Assembly (NCBI RefSeq): GCF_000685235.1
Contig: NZ_ARYH01000001.1
Location: 434,001 to 498,000, forward strand
Direction of reading: 5' to 3'
From: Hyphomonas adhaerens MHS-3
Lineage (GTDB): Bacteria; Pseudomonadota; Alphaproteobacteria; Caulobacterales; Hyphomonadaceae
Length of the DNA: 64,000 bases
Notes under the pieces: model-generated
The model's input: only the letters and a program-made list of their open reading frames with translations
What the model was told of the DNA's origin: nothing
Databases searched by the model: none
Translations under genes and position numbers: made by a program
Shown here: piece by piece, positions 41,498 to 49,512 of the stretch
Layout of the letters: each line of letters opens with the position of its first letter
Numbering within the stretch: the first letter of the stretch is position 1

Positions 41498-41568
41498 CTT
41501 CGACTTCGCTCAGGATGAGTCCCGGTCGGGCGGAACATTCGGAGCGCTCATGCTGAGCGAAGTCGAAG
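41498..41568. repeat. Inverted repeat of the CTTCGACTTCGCTCA type, inside a gene's 3' end
   Basis: CTTCGACTTCGCTCA (41498-41512) and its exact complement TGAGCGAAGTCGAAG (41554-41568) enclose 41 nt. Palindromic elements with this core are often dispersed in alphaproteobacterial genomes. The right arm is translated as the last residues of the HTH-like protein (minus strand), so the repeat seems to have replaced the original C-terminus. Confidence 0.7.
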
Positions 41569-42367
41569 CACGGGCGCGGGCGGCGCCAGCTTCCCCATCC
41601 TGCGGCGCGCCCTCTTCCCGCTCCCTCCGCCTCAGCTCCACTAGTTCTGCCCAATAGTCGCGGGTGCGGTCTTTTTCGCGGAGGTGTTCGTAGAAGGCGT
41701 CGGTGTCGGCTTTTGACCAGGCGGCGCTGTCGGGGTCCGGCTCTGGTGGCGGGAGGGGCGGCAGGCCGGCGGCTTTGCGGGCGGCCGCTTCGGCTTCGGC
41801 CTCTTCATTGATCTGCCGGGCATAGGCCATCGCCCGCTCCAGCCCTTTCTGGCGCACGATGACGGCCGCCTGGTTCTGGAACTTTTCCATCTCGCCCGTG
41901 CCGGCGCGGCTGAAGGAGAGGATGCGGGCGAGGCGGCGGACGGCGGCGATCTCTTCCTCTGCCGCATCCAGATGCCCGGCCTCGGCGAGGGCGAGCGTGC
42001 GGGCGCGGGCAAGGTCCACTTGCCGCCGCGCGCCGGTGGTCGGCCGGTCCTGCATCTCCTCGCACATCTGCCACAACTCGTCCGCCTGCTGGCGGATGGC
42101 CTCGACCGCGTCCGCCCCTTCCCCGCGCGAGGCGGCGTCTGCTTCTTCCCGCGCCCTGAGGTCTATTTGCCGGTAGCCGTCCAGCCGGGCCCACCGGGTG
42201 AGCGTCGCCTCCGGAATCTGGAGGCGGGCGCGGAGGCTGGCGAGGCTTTCGCCGCCAAGGGCCGCCGCCCGTGCCAGGGTGCGCAGCGCGTCAAGCTCCG
42301 CCCGGGTGCGGCGGTGGCGAGTCTGTTTCGGTGGCTTTTGCGGCCGGGTCGTCATGTGCTCTGTCAT
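41510..42367 (-). CDS. HTH-like protein of unknown function, C-terminus altered by a repeat
   Basis: 285 residues, mostly helical and rich in Ala, Arg and Glu. An N-terminal helix-turn-helix-like segment (GGESLASLRARLQIPEATLTRWARLDGYR) resembles DNA-binding ends of phage terminase small subunits and transposase-like proteins. A middle part has long amphipathic helices and a Pro-rich patch (LPPLPPPEPDP). The last 20 residues derive from the inverted repeat at 41498-41568. It is divergent from the putative large RNA at 42623, which raises the possibility of a functional link. No close family recognised. Confidence 0.6.
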   Translation of the reverse strand: MTEHMTTRPQKPPKQTRHRRTRAELDALRTLARAAALGGESLASLRARLQIPEATLTRWARLDGYRQIDLRAREEADAASRGEGADAVEAIRQQADELWQMCEEMQDRPTTGARRQVDLARARTLALAEAGHLDAAEEEIAAVRRLARILSFSRAGTGEMEKFQNQAAVIVRQKGLERAMAYARQINEEAEAEAAARKAAGLPPLPPPEPDPDSAAWSKADTDAFYEHLREKDRTRDYWAELVELRRREREEGAPQDGEAGAARARASTSLSMSAPNVPPDRDSS

Positions 42368-42593
42368 GGGGCAGAGATTGCCACGGGGCCTTATCAGACG
42401 AATTCGCGGGCCCGGCCAGACGCCCCGGAGGACGCCATAGAGGGTGTATAGAGGGCGTATAGAGTGTGTTCGTGAGGGTGTTTGGCGGCGGCCTGTCCAC
42501 CCCCTGACGCCCGGGCTTCCTCCGTGTGCAGCGCAACAAATTCACAGGCGATTTGAAACCTGTGGAATTCTTCGCCTGCTGCATGAAAAATTT

Positions 42594-42622
42594 TTGACAA
42601 GGACTCGACTCAGGCGAGCTTT
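42594..42622 (+). promoter_or_regulatory. Candidate promoter with two GANTC sites for the large RNA
   Basis: Consensus -35 TTGACA (42594-42599); a -10 is expected near 42617-42622 (AGCTTT, weak). The spacer contains two adjacent CcrM methylation sites GACTC (42602-42606 and 42607-42611). GcrA promotes transcription at promoters with methylated GANTC, and gcrA is present in this window, so cell-cycle control is possible. Confidence 0.5.
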
Positions 42623-43190
42623 GGTGAGATCGTTTCGTTAAGCCAACGAAACCAGCCGGGAGCAGACCCGGCAACGGAACGGAGGCAGAGCACGCCGCCC
42701 CCGGATCGGTCCGGGTCAGGAGCAAAGCTGTGAGAGCAGCGGCGCAAAGGGCCCGGCGGGATGAAGGGACAAAGCTGGTGGCGTATTCCGGAGGGGAGCT
42801 AGACCCCGCAAGGAAAGGCTGTAGGCCGTGACCGGAGCGCGATCCGAAACACGGTGGCAAAGCTGAGGCACAGATGGAAACCCGACAGGGCAACCTGGAA
42901 GGAAACCAAAAGGAAATCAGCGGCGTACAGGTTGCGGAGGCATCGCCCGAGATGCTGCGGAACCGCGGAAACGGCCGCCTGAAAAGGCACCTGAGAAGGT
43001 AAGGGCGCCAGCCCGTTCCCAAGACGGGCAGGCGACCGGCCGGGACCGGAAGGGGTGAAGACAGGCCCGTGCAAGCGAGCCCGAAACACTCCGGTGTCAG
43101 AAGACCGACAACGAGTGCTAGCACAGTGTCTCGGTAGTCCGATTCGAAACACCAGGAAAGGCGTTCTCCCCTGGGAGAGCGCCTTTTTTG
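42623..43190 (+). ncRNA. Putative large structured non-coding RNA (about 570 nt), no known family
   Basis: No credible protein is encoded on either strand, yet the plus strand folds locally almost everywhere into exact hairpins: GTTTCGTT/AACGAAAC (42632-42652), GCCGGG/CCCGGC (42655-42672), CCCGGA-TCGG-TCCGGG (42700-42715), CCGTG/CACGG around CGGA/TCCG (42826-42854), CAGG-GCAA-CCTG (42886-42897), GCATC/GATGC (42940-42955), GCCT-GAAA-AGGC (42977-42988), CGCC-A-GCCCGT/ACGGGC-A-GGCG (43006-43034), ACAC-TCCG-GTGT (43086-43097). Two loops are GNRA and one is UNCG, and A-rich joins link the stems. It has a promoter candidate and a strong terminator. It lacks the conserved core of RNase P RNA, tmRNA, 6S RNA, SRP RNA or group II domain V, so I cannot name it. 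Confidence 0.65.
43160..43189 (+). terminator. Terminator of the putative large RNA
   Basis: An 11-bp stem (43160-43170 with 43173-43183, one T-G pair) followed by TTTTTT on the plus strand. There is no plus-strand protein gene for more than 3 kb upstream, so it must end the RNA at 42623. Confidence 0.85.
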
Positions 43191-44583: not shown

Positions 44584-44784
44584 GGCGCGCCCCTTTCCGA
44601 TTCAGCCTTCCACAAGGCACCCTCACCCAGACCTGTGACTGCTGGCAAGAGGCCCGGGTGGAAGAAGCCCGCACACGCTTCGCTCGCATCCTTAACGGGC
44701 AATCGGATGCAATCCCGGTTCTGCTGGCGGCACGAACCGGGCTGTGCTTAACTTTCTCCAGTTTTGTGGAGGGAGAGCACACGC

Positions 44785-47055
44785 ATGGACCGCCGTTACA
44801 AGTCCTTGCTGGCCGGCAGCATTCTGGCGCTGACCGTTGCCTGTGCCAGCACACCCGATTCCACGCCCGGCCAGGAAGATGGGACCGGAGGAAACTGGCT
44901 GCAAACGGCCTGGCACTGGATGTTTCCGCCGGACGCGCCTCCGCCGCCTCCACCACCCCCGCCTCCACCTCCTCCTCCTCCGCCGCCTCCGCCTCCGCCT
45001 CCGCCACCTGCGGTGACGGAAACAGTGGCAGGCTTCCCGCCCGGGGAGCTCTTCGGCGTCATGCAATCGACAGGCGTCGATCCGTACGAGCCCGCCAATC
45101 GCGAGGTGATGCGGGCTTTTCTGATCGCACACGGCGTGCCGACGGACGAAACAGACGACGTGTTTCGCTATTTCGGCATGGCCCCTGTCGCGCCGCCGGC
45201 CCCCACGGCCTCGGTCGGGAGCAGCGCATCCGGGGACAGGTCCGGCGCCTTCGAAGAGTATGACAAACAGCGCTTTCCGGAGGCCGAAGAAGAGTATGCC
45301 GAGGCACCCGGCCCGAGCGATCGGGAAGTCCTCGCCGACTTTCTGCGCAGCGCCGGCGTGGACGTGTCAGACGACATGTCCGTGCAGGAGCTTGAAGATC
45401 TGGTCTATTCGGCAATGGATATGGCTCCGGCCGCCGCCGCCGGGCCCAGCAACTATTCCCATTGCCAGGCCGAACTGGAAGATCCGGACACGATCAGCCT
45501 GATCTGCGAAATGTTCGACGAAATCGGCGTGAACAGCGAGCTGAAAACCGCCAGCATTCCGGTGGGCGATGACCTCACCGCCACGCTCCAGCGGATCGCC
45601 GTGCAGGTTGCCGGTGGCCGGGACCGCCTTGAAGTCGGCATGCCGAAGGCCCGCCTGTGCGTCTGGAACATGAACGAGGTGGCGACGGAGGATAACTATC
45701 TCTATTTCGGAGACTGCAGCATCTGGGAAGAACCGCTCAGCAAACTGGTCGAAGCGGGCGCCGGGAATTTCAATTCCGGTCGCGTGGCCCATCAGGCGCC
45801 AAATGAAATGGTGGTCGACCAGGCCTATTTCCTGGAAATCGCCATCCAGCCGCTGACCCAGAATATTTCCGTGGAAGCCGCCGACACGATGCTGACCAGC
45901 ACGCTGGGCACCGGCCTCGCGCCCGGCAGCACGGAAACGCCGTTCGCCATCGAGTTCGATACGGTGAAAGCCTCGAAGATCATGTCGGCCACGCTGGAAG
46001 GCGATGATGAGTTCGATATCCGCGCCATGACGCCGAGGGAGCAGGCCGTCCTGCCGGACGCACCGACTGTCTGGAAATGGCGGGTCGTGCCCAAGGAAGA
46101 CGGGTATGGCGCCTTGCAGTACAATCTTTCCCAGAGCCTGGAAGTGGACGGAGAACGGTTTGAACGCTCCGTGAAAACGACCTGGCAGGATGTCGATATC
46201 ACGACCATCGACGACCTGCTGGCAGACGATACGCCCGCCGCCCCGCGCGGTGCGTCCACCATGGCCAGCACGCTGGTCGCACCGGCCGCCAATGGAAGCG
46301 CGAGTGGAAGCGCGGAAGTCTCCACGCCCCCGGCCGGCGCCGGGTGCACCTTTACGACCGGAAGCAATCCGGACCGTTTCGCCATGGTCCTGTCGAACCT
46401 CGCCTACTCTCCGCCGATCAGCCGTCTGGCGGTCACCCATGAAGATGGCGACCGGATCACCCAAGCGCTGATCGAGACCGGCTTCAGCATCCAGCGTTGC
46501 CGGGACACCAGCCGCAGCCAGACGCTGAGCGCCCTGCGCGAAGTGGGCCGCAAATCCCTCGCCCGCAAACAGGCCGGGGCCCATCCGGCCACCTTCTTCT
46601 ATTACTCCGGACACGGCGTGAATGTTGACGGGACGAACTATGTCCTGCCCGTCGACCTGCCGGGGGCCAGCACAGCGGAAATCGAGGACGGGGCCGTCAG
46701 CTTCGAACAGATTTTCAACATCGTCTCGACGACTGTGGCGTCGACCAGCTTCATCGTATTCGATGCCTGCCGCACCGTGATGGACGATGAGAGCCGCGGC
46801 ATGCTGCGCAGCTACCGGCCGGTCACCTGGTCGACGGGTGTGTTCCAGGCCTATGCGACCGAGCCCGGCAAGACAGCTGCCGATGACGGGGCCTATTCAG
46901 AGGAACTGGCCCGGCGCATTCCCGCGGCCGGCTTGCCAGCGAACGTCTTGTTCAAGCGCGTGCAGGACGCCGTCGCCCGCCGCACCAATGAACAGCAGCA
47001 CCCCAACTATATCGACCTGACGACCGGCGGGGACTTCTACTTCCAGCCTGAATAA
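44785..47055 (+). CDS. Lipoprotein caspase-like protease (peptidase C14) with polyproline linker
   Basis: 756 residues. The signal peptide ends in a lipobox (LTVAC, Cys at about residue 20), so the protein is an envelope lipoprotein. Next comes a run of 24 prolines (44938-45009), two related acidic helical segments (around EPANREVMRAFLIAHGV and GPSDREVLADFLRSAGV), a beta-rich middle part of about 250 residues, and a C-terminal caspase-like domain. The catalytic pair is H610 in YYSGHG and C662 in VFDACR. Start ATG 44785 follows GGAGGGAGAG. Bacterial C14 enzymes act in stress, death or signalling pathways; substrate here unknown. The polyproline run will need EF-P for translation. Confidence 0.85.
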   Translation: MDRRYKSLLAGSILALTVACASTPDSTPGQEDGTGGNWLQTAWHWMFPPDAPPPPPPPPPPPPPPPPPPPPPPPPAVTETVAGFPPGELFGVMQSTGVDPYEPANREVMRAFLIAHGVPTDETDDVFRYFGMAPVAPPAPTASVGSSASGDRSGAFEEYDKQRFPEAEEEYAEAPGPSDREVLADFLRSAGVDVSDDMSVQELEDLVYSAMDMAPAAAAGPSNYSHCQAELEDPDTISLICEMFDEIGVNSELKTASIPVGDDLTATLQRIAVQVAGGRDRLEVGMPKARLCVWNMNEVATEDNYLYFGDCSIWEEPLSKLVEAGAGNFNSGRVAHQAPNEMVVDQAYFLEIAIQPLTQNISVEAADTMLTSTLGTGLAPGSTETPFAIEFDTVKASKIMSATLEGDDEFDIRAMTPREQAVLPDAPTVWKWRVVPKEDGYGALQYNLSQSLEVDGERFERSVKTTWQDVDITTIDDLLADDTPAAPRGASTMASTLVAPAANGSASGSAEVSTPPAGAGCTFTTGSNPDRFAMVLSNLAYSPPISRLAVTHEDGDRITQALIETGFSIQRCRDTSRSQTLSALREVGRKSLARKQAGAHPATFFYYSGHGVNVDGTNYVLPVDLPGASTAEIEDGAVSFEQIFNIVSTTVASTSFIVFDACRTVMDDESRGMLRSYRPVTWSTGVFQAYATEPGKTAADDGAYSEELARRIPAAGLPANVLFKRVQDAVARRTNEQQHPNYIDLTTGGDFYFQPE
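44938..45009 (+). repeat. CCN low-complexity tract coding for 24 consecutive prolines
   Basis: Uninterrupted proline codons (CCT, CCG, CCA, CCC mixed) in the caspase gene. Mixed codons show it is selected as protein rather than a fresh slippage product; it probably forms a stiff polyproline-II rod between the lipid anchor and the rest. Confidence 0.95.
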
Positions 47056-48816: not shown

Positions 48817-48978
48817 ATATGTAGAAAGCCTGTGGAAAGGCTGCCCCGCATGTTGTGTTTCGTTTCGCCATGGATACGATATATAGGTGCTGAGCGGGGT
48901 GGCGCGTAATTGCCATCTCAACATATAGGGGCTGACGGACCTGGGTGTCAGGTCTGTACCAAGCAGGAAGGTGAATAC

Positions 48979-49512
48979 ATGTCCTGGACTGACGAACGCG
49001 TGAGTGCGCTGAAGAAACTCTGGGCTGAGGGCCACTCGGCCTCTCAGATCGCAAAGCAACTTGGCGGCGTGACCCGCAATGCCGTCATCGGCAAGGTTCA
49101 CCGTCTGGGCCTGTCGGGCCGCGCGACACCGTCCCGGCCAGTGAAGCGCCCGCCGCGCCTGGCCCGTCCGAAGCCCCGCGTGTTGCCGGACGGTTCGGTG
49201 AAGGTGCCATCGCCGCAGGTGCCGGAGCGGCCCGCGGAAGCCCCGCGTACCGTGATCGAGCGCCAGGAGCCGCTGGCCCCGCTGCCGCCGCTGGCCATGG
49301 ATGACGGCGAACCGGCAACGATCCTCACGCTTCGGGATTCCATGTGCAAATGGCCGATCGGCGACCCGGCCGATCCGAAATTTGCCTTCTGCGGCCGCAA
49401 GGCTGACTGCGGCCCGTATTGCGCCGAGCACGCGAAAGTCGCTTTCCAGCCCGCCCGCAAGCGGGACTCCAAGCGGGGCGAGTATGATTACGTCCGCCGC
49501 ATCGCCGGCTGA
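48979..49512 (+). CDS. gcrA: Cell-cycle transcription factor GcrA
   Basis: 177 residues. The N-terminal DNA-binding part reads SWTDERVSALKKLWAEGHSASQIAKQLGGVTRNAVIGKVHRLGLSGR, the unmistakable GcrA signature, followed by a Pro-rich linker and the C-terminal sigma70-binding domain with conserved Cys (MCKWPIGDP, FAFCGRKADCGPYCAEHAKVA). GcrA binds sigma70-RNA polymerase and acts at promoters with CcrM-methylated GANTC sites, controlling division and DNA replication genes. Start ATG 48979 has GGAAGG upstream. A strong terminator follows. Confidence 0.97.
   Translation: MSWTDERVSALKKLWAEGHSASQIAKQLGGVTRNAVIGKVHRLGLSGRATPSRPVKRPPRLARPKPRVLPDGSVKVPSPQVPERPAEAPRTVIERQEPLAPLPPLAMDDGEPATILTLRDSMCKWPIGDPADPKFAFCGRKADCGPYCAEHAKVAFQPARKRDSKRGEYDYVRRIAG

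Follow-up and report, generated by a model that had tools for sequence, protein, structure and literature searches.

The window analysed in this study is a stretch of 64,000 nucleotides from Hyphomonas adhaerens MHS-3. On its plus strand, positions 42594-43190 hold what sequence comparison identifies as a conserved, noncoding and structured RNA gene of Hyphomonas, and this confirms an earlier observation on the same DNA. That the region encodes a structured noncoding RNA is regarded as close to certain. The genes in its surroundings include an HTH-like gene (41510-42367), gcrA (48910-49512), which is 6 kb from the RNA gene, and, at 44764-47055 on the plus strand, a gene whose predicted protein combines a caspase domain (PF00656) with a long run of prolines.

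The RNA gene appears to be a stand-alone gene with a promoter-like region and a terminator of its own, and it would specify a multi-domain noncoding RNA. The predicted transcript probably extends from about position 42640 to position 43189 of the plus strand. Its start was placed near 42640, and not at 42594, because a conserved promoter-like pair of elements is located at 42605-42633. The features of the RNA gene and its promoter region are compiled in Table 1.

Table 1. Positions (in the window) of the RNA gene, its predicted structural elements and its putative promoter elements
Feature	Position	Strand	Basis or remark
Inverted repeat TTCACAG-N12-CTGTGGAA, probable binding site of a transcription factor (activator)	42541..42567	+	pattern
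Two abutting GANTC (CcrM methylation) sites	42602..42611	+	42602-42606 and 42607-42611, each overlapping the -35 element
-35 element TCGACT	42605..42610	+	in 42 of 44 loci; diverged in L072 and L124
-10 element GATCGT (pattern xAxxxT)	42628..42633	+	17 nt from the -35 element
RNA, about 550 nt	42640..43189	+	start inferred from promoter-like elements, end from terminator
5' domain hairpin GCCGGG-AGCAGA-CCCGGC	42655..42672	+	consensus fold
Core domain: GNRA-capped arm within a long helix, followed by a hairpin and a pseudoknotted hairpin	42688..42859	+	model R2, covariation
GNRA hairpin GCUGU-GAGA-GCAGC (helix 5)	42727..42740	+	all 5 pairs with both-sided changes
Hairpin GGGG-AGCUAGA-CCCC (helix 7)	42793..42807	+	all 4 pairs with both-sided changes
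Pseudoknot (helix 8), 42818-42820 (GCU) with 42836-42838 (AGC)	42818..42838	+	covariation
3' domain helix GGGCGCC.../GGCGACC	43003..43038	+	alignment columns 483-489 with 515-521
Highly conserved 3' module AGUGCUAGCACAGUGUCUCGGUAGUCCGAUUCGAAAC	43114..43150	+	among the most conserved stretches of the full-length alignment
Palindromic hairpin GUG-CUAG-CAC, candidate symmetric kissing loop	43115..43124	+	loop variants in 33 copies
Intrinsic terminator	43153..43190	+	-26.5 kcal/mol, z -5.86; both-sided stem changes (columns 660-699, full-length alignment)

Fold, coding potential and identity of the RNA

When the region 42594-43190 was folded, the plus strand surpassed its shuffled versions (z -4.23; 0 of 100 shuffles were as good), whereas the result was weaker for the minus strand of the same stretch (z -1.97; 3 of 100 as good). 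Not all hairpins proposed by this fold were supported by comparison. The strong terminator that the earlier note had described was recovered at the 3' end; it was absent from the output of a simple pattern scan, despite its strong hairpin.

The earlier note had also seen no credible protein gene in the region, and this view held. In an alignment of 24 sequences, 304 of 374 insertions and deletions relative to the window copy were not multiples of three, and an open reading frame of at least 25 codons with the same start and stop was never present in more than 3 of the 24 copies, on either strand. Chance-like open reading frames exist, for example at 42799-43152 on the minus strand, and in some copies the minus strand carries stop-free runs of up to 197 codons, the frames of which differ. 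Together, these data argue against a shared protein product.

The Rfam 15 covariance models yielded no match at gathering score in the whole window. When hits up to E 10 were admitted, the region of the RNA gene gave six weak ones, all with E 0.38 or worse and far below the gathering scores; the best of these, mir-9457 (E 0.38), lay over the terminator. Whole scans of 7 of the 16 contexts L067-L082 with Rfam revealed four tRNAs and nothing else. RNase P RNA and tmRNA, the motifs of which had been reported missing from the locus, were both located elsewhere in the same genome, and the respective identities were rejected: RF00010 was found at G000:C1:319778-320150 with 314.6 bits, and the alpha-tmRNA model RF01849 at G000:C1:1636499-1636860 with 249.7 bits. 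The one further RF00010 match listed (22.8 bits, at C1:2131524) lies away from the RNA gene, and ARAGORN found no tmRNA in the window. In one Hyphomonas copy (L082), the start of an RNase P RNA-like sequence was seen by eye closely 3' of the RNA gene.

The literature on Hyphomonas, Hyphomonadaceae and wider RNA topics was covered in part, and the RNA was not described in titles and abstract openings. The word Hyphomonas is absent from the main texts of two RNA-discovery papers; in one of them, PMC11109978, Hyphomonadaceae is not mentioned either. The RNA family is apparently undescribed.

Covariation in the core and in the flanking domains

Relatives of the RNA gene were found by DNA comparison and with covariance models, and the core domain was aligned for 41 sequences from four genera. 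In this alignment, 95.7% of the cells were paired at 45 pairs. Because the alignment was fitted to the model R1 and 40 of its 41 rows had served for choosing the pairs, this value favours the structure; shuffled controls were paired to 79.7%, and the slid versions, which reveal what remains, to 34-43%. Both-sided changes were observed in 34 of the 45 core pairs, the pseudoknot included, and the number of cells with such changes was 274, compared with 80 in shuffles.

In a home-made covariation test, with substitutions reassigned on a tree of 40 rows, 14 of the 45 RNAalifold pairs obtained E values below 0.05. When the same test was extended to all pairs of columns, only three pairs reached E 0.05. 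The 12 best column pairs were nevertheless canonical in 82-100% of the rows, 11 of them belonged to the RNAalifold structure, and non-canonical pairs appeared from rank 13 on. The twelfth, GC[C/U] with [G/A]GC, represents the pseudoknot, which was absent from the fold proposal and was noticed in the all-pairs scan at E 0.60. One of its strands (42836-42838) sits in the loop of the hairpin 42825-42855. One of its pairs is CG in 27, UA in 13 and UG in 1 of the 41 rows, another is GC in 39, AU in 1 and unpaired in 1, and the remaining pair is invariant. A GNRA loop, which had been proposed from the window sequence, was verified for the hairpin of helix 5: the loop is GAGA or GAAA in the aligned core rows, except for L081, which is misaligned at that place.

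The regions around the core were compared in a full-length alignment of 24 Hyphomonas copies. The consensus fold contains 82 predicted pairs, 36 of which show both-sided changes. A small number of copies show CG/UA and GC/AU exchanges in the 5' hairpin, and other copies have mismatches there. The middle region of the RNA varies in length between copies. Four pairs of the 3' domain helix are invariant in all 24 copies, and the pair of columns 484-520 is GC in 11, UA in 9 and broken in 4. By eye, the 3' module seems to be missing from the two g20 copies (L072 and L073), which appear to stop shortly downstream of the core. The fold had also proposed that GUUUCG, in the -10 region, pairs with a CGAAAC close to the 3' end. 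This was rejected, as the Hyphomonas variants compared by eye break the pairing and none of them compensates; we regard the GUUUCG segment as promoter DNA. Another short end-to-end pairing, CGAA with UUCG, is predicted by the full-length consensus fold.

In summary, the both-sided changes in the core and the lack of any Rfam 15 match bear out the large structured RNA of unknown family that had been proposed. The sequence comparisons strongly support a large structured RNA of a family not contained in Rfam 15. Its size, its complex covarying fold and the lack of a shared open reading frame would place it in the loosely defined class of large ornate noncoding RNAs.

The loop of the palindromic hairpin in the 3' module deserves separate treatment. 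Of 33 copies, 29 carry CUAG in this loop and 4 carry CAUG; on a tree of 24 copies, at least two independent double changes are required, with no intermediate seen. Because the middle U and A cannot pair with each other within one loop of four bases, the switch between palindromes points to a contact between two molecules. The same argument has been used for symmetric kissing loops in OLE and GOLLD (PMC12286853). The count covered copies of Hyphomonas and L081; in the others the region has diverged too far to be counted. Six g14 copies (L067-L070, L124 and L125) have no palindromic loop by eye; in some g14 copies CUAG, UCGA, GGCC or GAUC was seen near the place of the loop, in an insecure alignment, and these were not counted. 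With a signal that rests on two switches, we suggest only tentatively that the RNA may dimerise via its 3' palindromic loop.

Promoter elements, distribution and genomic neighbourhood

A TTGACA promoter element at 42594, which had been proposed from the window sequence, turned out not to be conserved, and a pattern scan of the region found no consensus sigma-70 promoter pair. The conserved arrangement is a different one. Downstream of the -35 element given in Table 1, at a spacing of 16 or 17 nt, the pattern xAxxxT (A at position 2, T at position 6) is present in 37 of 42 promoters, related copies included, compared with a control fraction of 0.087.

The -35 element is overlapped by sites for CcrM methylation. 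GANTC sites were counted in 25 promoters with less than 80% identity to each other (2650 positions). They contain 65 sites, or 24.5 per kb, whereas the surroundings, sampled over 740 kb, have 1.73 per kb. The fair figure leaves out the -35 site, because the pattern used for locating the promoters nearly always contains one GANTC. Without it, 35 sites remain (14.3 per kb), which is still an enrichment of about 8-fold; shuffles gave 9.6 +/- 3.1, and 0 of 1000 reached 35. At least one GANTC is present in 24 of the 25 promoters, a value that is partly built in by the locating pattern. The promoter of L072 has neither a GANTC site nor, by pattern, the upstream repeat.

This repeat, CACAG-N11 to 13-CTGTG, was found by pattern in 37 of 42 promoters and not in the other five (related copies included). 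Its centre lies at -50/-51 relative to the -35 element in 29 cases, at -40/-41 in four and at -30 in four. Such steps of about 10 bp, or one helical turn, are as expected for a factor that faces RNA polymerase. In the genome, the exact repeat pattern occurs once and a reversed control pattern once per strand, a count at chance level. Outside Hyphomonas, the left arm of the repeat is similar to the DnaA box TTATCCACA, a likeness that most of the Hyphomonas representatives do not share: L124 matches exactly, and L071, L074 and L075 have one mismatch. In total, 14 sites with at most one mismatch were counted in the upstream repeat, compared with about 0.4 expected, and nearly all of them are outside Hyphomonas; we treat them as a lead only.

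In addition to GcrA, the genome encodes a protein with a RAMA domain, a domain known from CcrM. In Caulobacter, GcrA is brought to promoters by CcrM marks and acts together with RNA polymerase (PMC3667746, PMC7987155). A GcrA ChIP-seq data set of H. neptunium has been published (PMC7200025). Since GANTC lies in and around the -35 element and the upstream repeat is found at helical-turn distances, the RNA is probably expressed in a cell-cycle window; it would be transcribed by sigma-70 RNA polymerase with GcrA/CcrM. The GANTC sites of the promoter are conserved among species, as would be expected for a GcrA/CcrM-controlled gene. We consider it likely that the promoter is linked to methylation, and we infer GcrA control of the RNA gene from these motifs.

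At the level of DNA, the RNA gene matched 32 of 61 genomes, its own included; these were 32 of the 37 Hyphomonas genomes, and the 24 genomes of 12 other genera gave no match. R1, a covariance model for the core domain that derives from 26 Hyphomonas copies, matched 36 of 299 genomes of the order, which represent four genera of one family; in a class-wide sample of 385 genomes, only the two Hyphomonas were matched. With a second core model (R2), to which the window copy aligned with 163 bits, 56 of 105 genomes of the family were matched, each once (36 Hyphomonas, 17 g14, 1 g19 and 2 g20), and 52 of 398 genomes of the order, all of them Hyphomonadaceae. The large model searches used stricter filters, by which weak matches are lost. 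With laxer filters, in a run that had no positive control of its own, 0 of 29 family genomes without match were recovered. A scan with a pattern from the 3' module gave 25 hits, one of which (L040, titled Actinomycetota) was rejected as a relative because it did not match model R2. As far as searched, the RNA thus seems confined to Hyphomonadaceae. Six Hyphomonas genomes, two of them poorer assemblies (G014 and G704), and many genomes of the sister genus g14 were without a match; judged from these, the RNA is dispensable.

To compare neighbourhoods, 36 contexts that reached at most about 10 kb to either side of the RNA gene were annotated with home-made ORF calls. The gene uvrB is located upstream in the same orientation in 22 contexts (16 Hyphomonas, 4 g14 and 2 g20), and gcrA is located downstream in 15 (14 Hyphomonas and 1 g19); the stretches examined from g14 and g20 had no gcrA close to the RNA. 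In five Hyphomonas contexts and part of g14, the RNA gene is located elsewhere. No neighbour is constant among the 36 contexts, and the downstream genes differ between genomes. A homologue of the caspase-domain protein is encoded near the RNA gene in nine contexts.

The HTH-like gene 41510-42367, which had been put forward as a candidate partner of the RNA, was rejected: a homologue is adjacent in 8 of the 36 contexts (8 of 21 in Hyphomonas, 0 of 15 in other genera). It showed no Pfam match to E 0.001 and no PHROG match to E 1. A REP-like inverted pair (41491-41519/41551-41569) overlaps the 3' end of this reading frame, and because of this overlap the called C-terminus may be an artefact.

An origin from a phage or plasmid was also rejected, as the RNA gene had no blastn match among phages and plasmids and one pattern had no exact match in viral contigs. 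The distribution and the neighbourhood together are consistent with a mainly vertical inheritance of a stand-alone RNA gene, accompanied by rearrangement and losses.

Possible modes of action and comparison with known RNAs

With modest confidence, we lean towards a large ornate RNA that is linked to the cell cycle, acts in trans, perhaps dimerises with itself, and is inherited mainly vertically in Hyphomonadaceae. It would be made in a cell-cycle window, might dimerise through its 3' loop, and would act as a folded RNA or as an RNA-protein particle, neither by antisense pairing nor on a neighbouring gene. A more specific version, in which this undescribed RNA has a methylation-dependent (GcrA/CcrM) cell-cycle expression and forms an RNA-only homodimer via a palindromic kissing loop, is possible, if somewhat doubtful.

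The same RNA could instead be a monomeric scaffold for proteins, with a partner encoded elsewhere in the genome and not next to it. The large conserved RNA, the highly conserved stretches of its 3' module and the lack of a constant neighbour would suit such a particle, but the two CUAG/CAUG switches without intermediates point to an RNA-RNA contact, and we consider a monomeric scaffold rather unlikely. Antisense RNAs are not usually as long as 550 nt, nor do they usually contain a pseudoknot. That the RNA is a cell-cycle antisense regulator, which pairs with the leaders of gcrA or other master-regulator mRNAs, would fit its GcrA/CcrM-like promoter and the 15 of 36 contexts in which gcrA is at most about 10 kb away. 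There is also a precedent in Caulobacter crescentus: CcnA, a noncoding RNA of the cell cycle with a length of 182 nt, targets ctrA and possibly gcrA (PMC8959179). However, when pairing with the gcrA leader was calculated for 14 of the 15 contexts with gcrA, the energies were no better than for the remaining leaders at that locus (mean rank fraction 0.61). In view of this missing signal, a CcnA-like pairing with gcrA was rejected; with the atypical size and pseudoknot also against it, the antisense reading appears improbable.

Size, a pseudoknot and a GNRA tetraloop recall large ribozymes, and all three are found in the Hyphomonas RNA. A catalytic or self-processing RNA is still very improbable: RNase P RNA is encoded separately in the genome, no Rfam ribozyme or intron was among the matches of the region up to E 10, and there is no constant flanking gene that would need processing. 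It would be most surprising if the transcript were just an untranslated leader, or if it encoded a protein that is small or has escaped recognition. The chance-like minus-strand frame and the stop-free runs could be cited for a protein, but the out-of-frame indels, the rarity of common reading frames, the terminator of the RNA gene and the differing downstream genes all speak against this reading.

To our knowledge, bacteria have only a small number of large ornate RNAs, and what these do has long been puzzling. The RNA described here is apparently new, its fold is strongly supported, it occurs in the genus that includes the laboratory species Hyphomonas neptunium, and its promoter points to a well-studied cell-cycle circuit. 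Known natural RNA quaternary structures are found mostly in mobile elements and Firmicutes; should the dimer prove true, it would be another such structure outside both.

The earlier note had compared the RNA with OLE, GOLLD and ROOL. The likeness extends to size and complexity, and possibly to a dimer loop; homology was not found with Rfam up to E 10. OLE RNA is about 600 nt long and has protein partners such as OapA, and GOLLD and ROOL frequently occur in association with phages and mobile elements. Like OLE RNA, the Hyphomonas RNA is highly structured, and a palindrome switch resembling that of OLE is present in its 3' loop. Unlike OLE, it has no Rfam match to E 10, was found only in Hyphomonadaceae, and has no recognisable protein partner. 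It differs from GOLLD and ROOL in having no Rfam, phage or plasmid match and in its chromosomal neighbours, which are common to several genera. In PMC12286853, OLE RNA is described to form a dimer, with a symmetric kissing loop tetranucleotide that alternates between palindromes, GOLLD and ROOL are presented as large ornate noncoding RNAs that form RNA-only multimers, and an RNA-only homo-multimer is reported for OLE, GOLLD and ROOL, but not for raiA.

CcnA is encoded at the replication origin and presumably activated by CtrA (PMC8959179); unlike this RNA of 182 nt, the Hyphomonas RNA has about 550 nt, a GANTC-type promoter and no gcrA pairing signal. Another parallel is the smtA motif ('Soda Lake RNA') of Thioalkalivibrio, which PMC11109978 describes as a genus-restricted noncoding RNA of more than 350 nt with covarying stems and no known function, located upstream of smtA. 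While the smtA motif has this constant position, the Hyphomonas RNA has no constant downstream gene. The two RNAs have in common that they are large, restricted to a taxon and noncoding, and that their stems covary.
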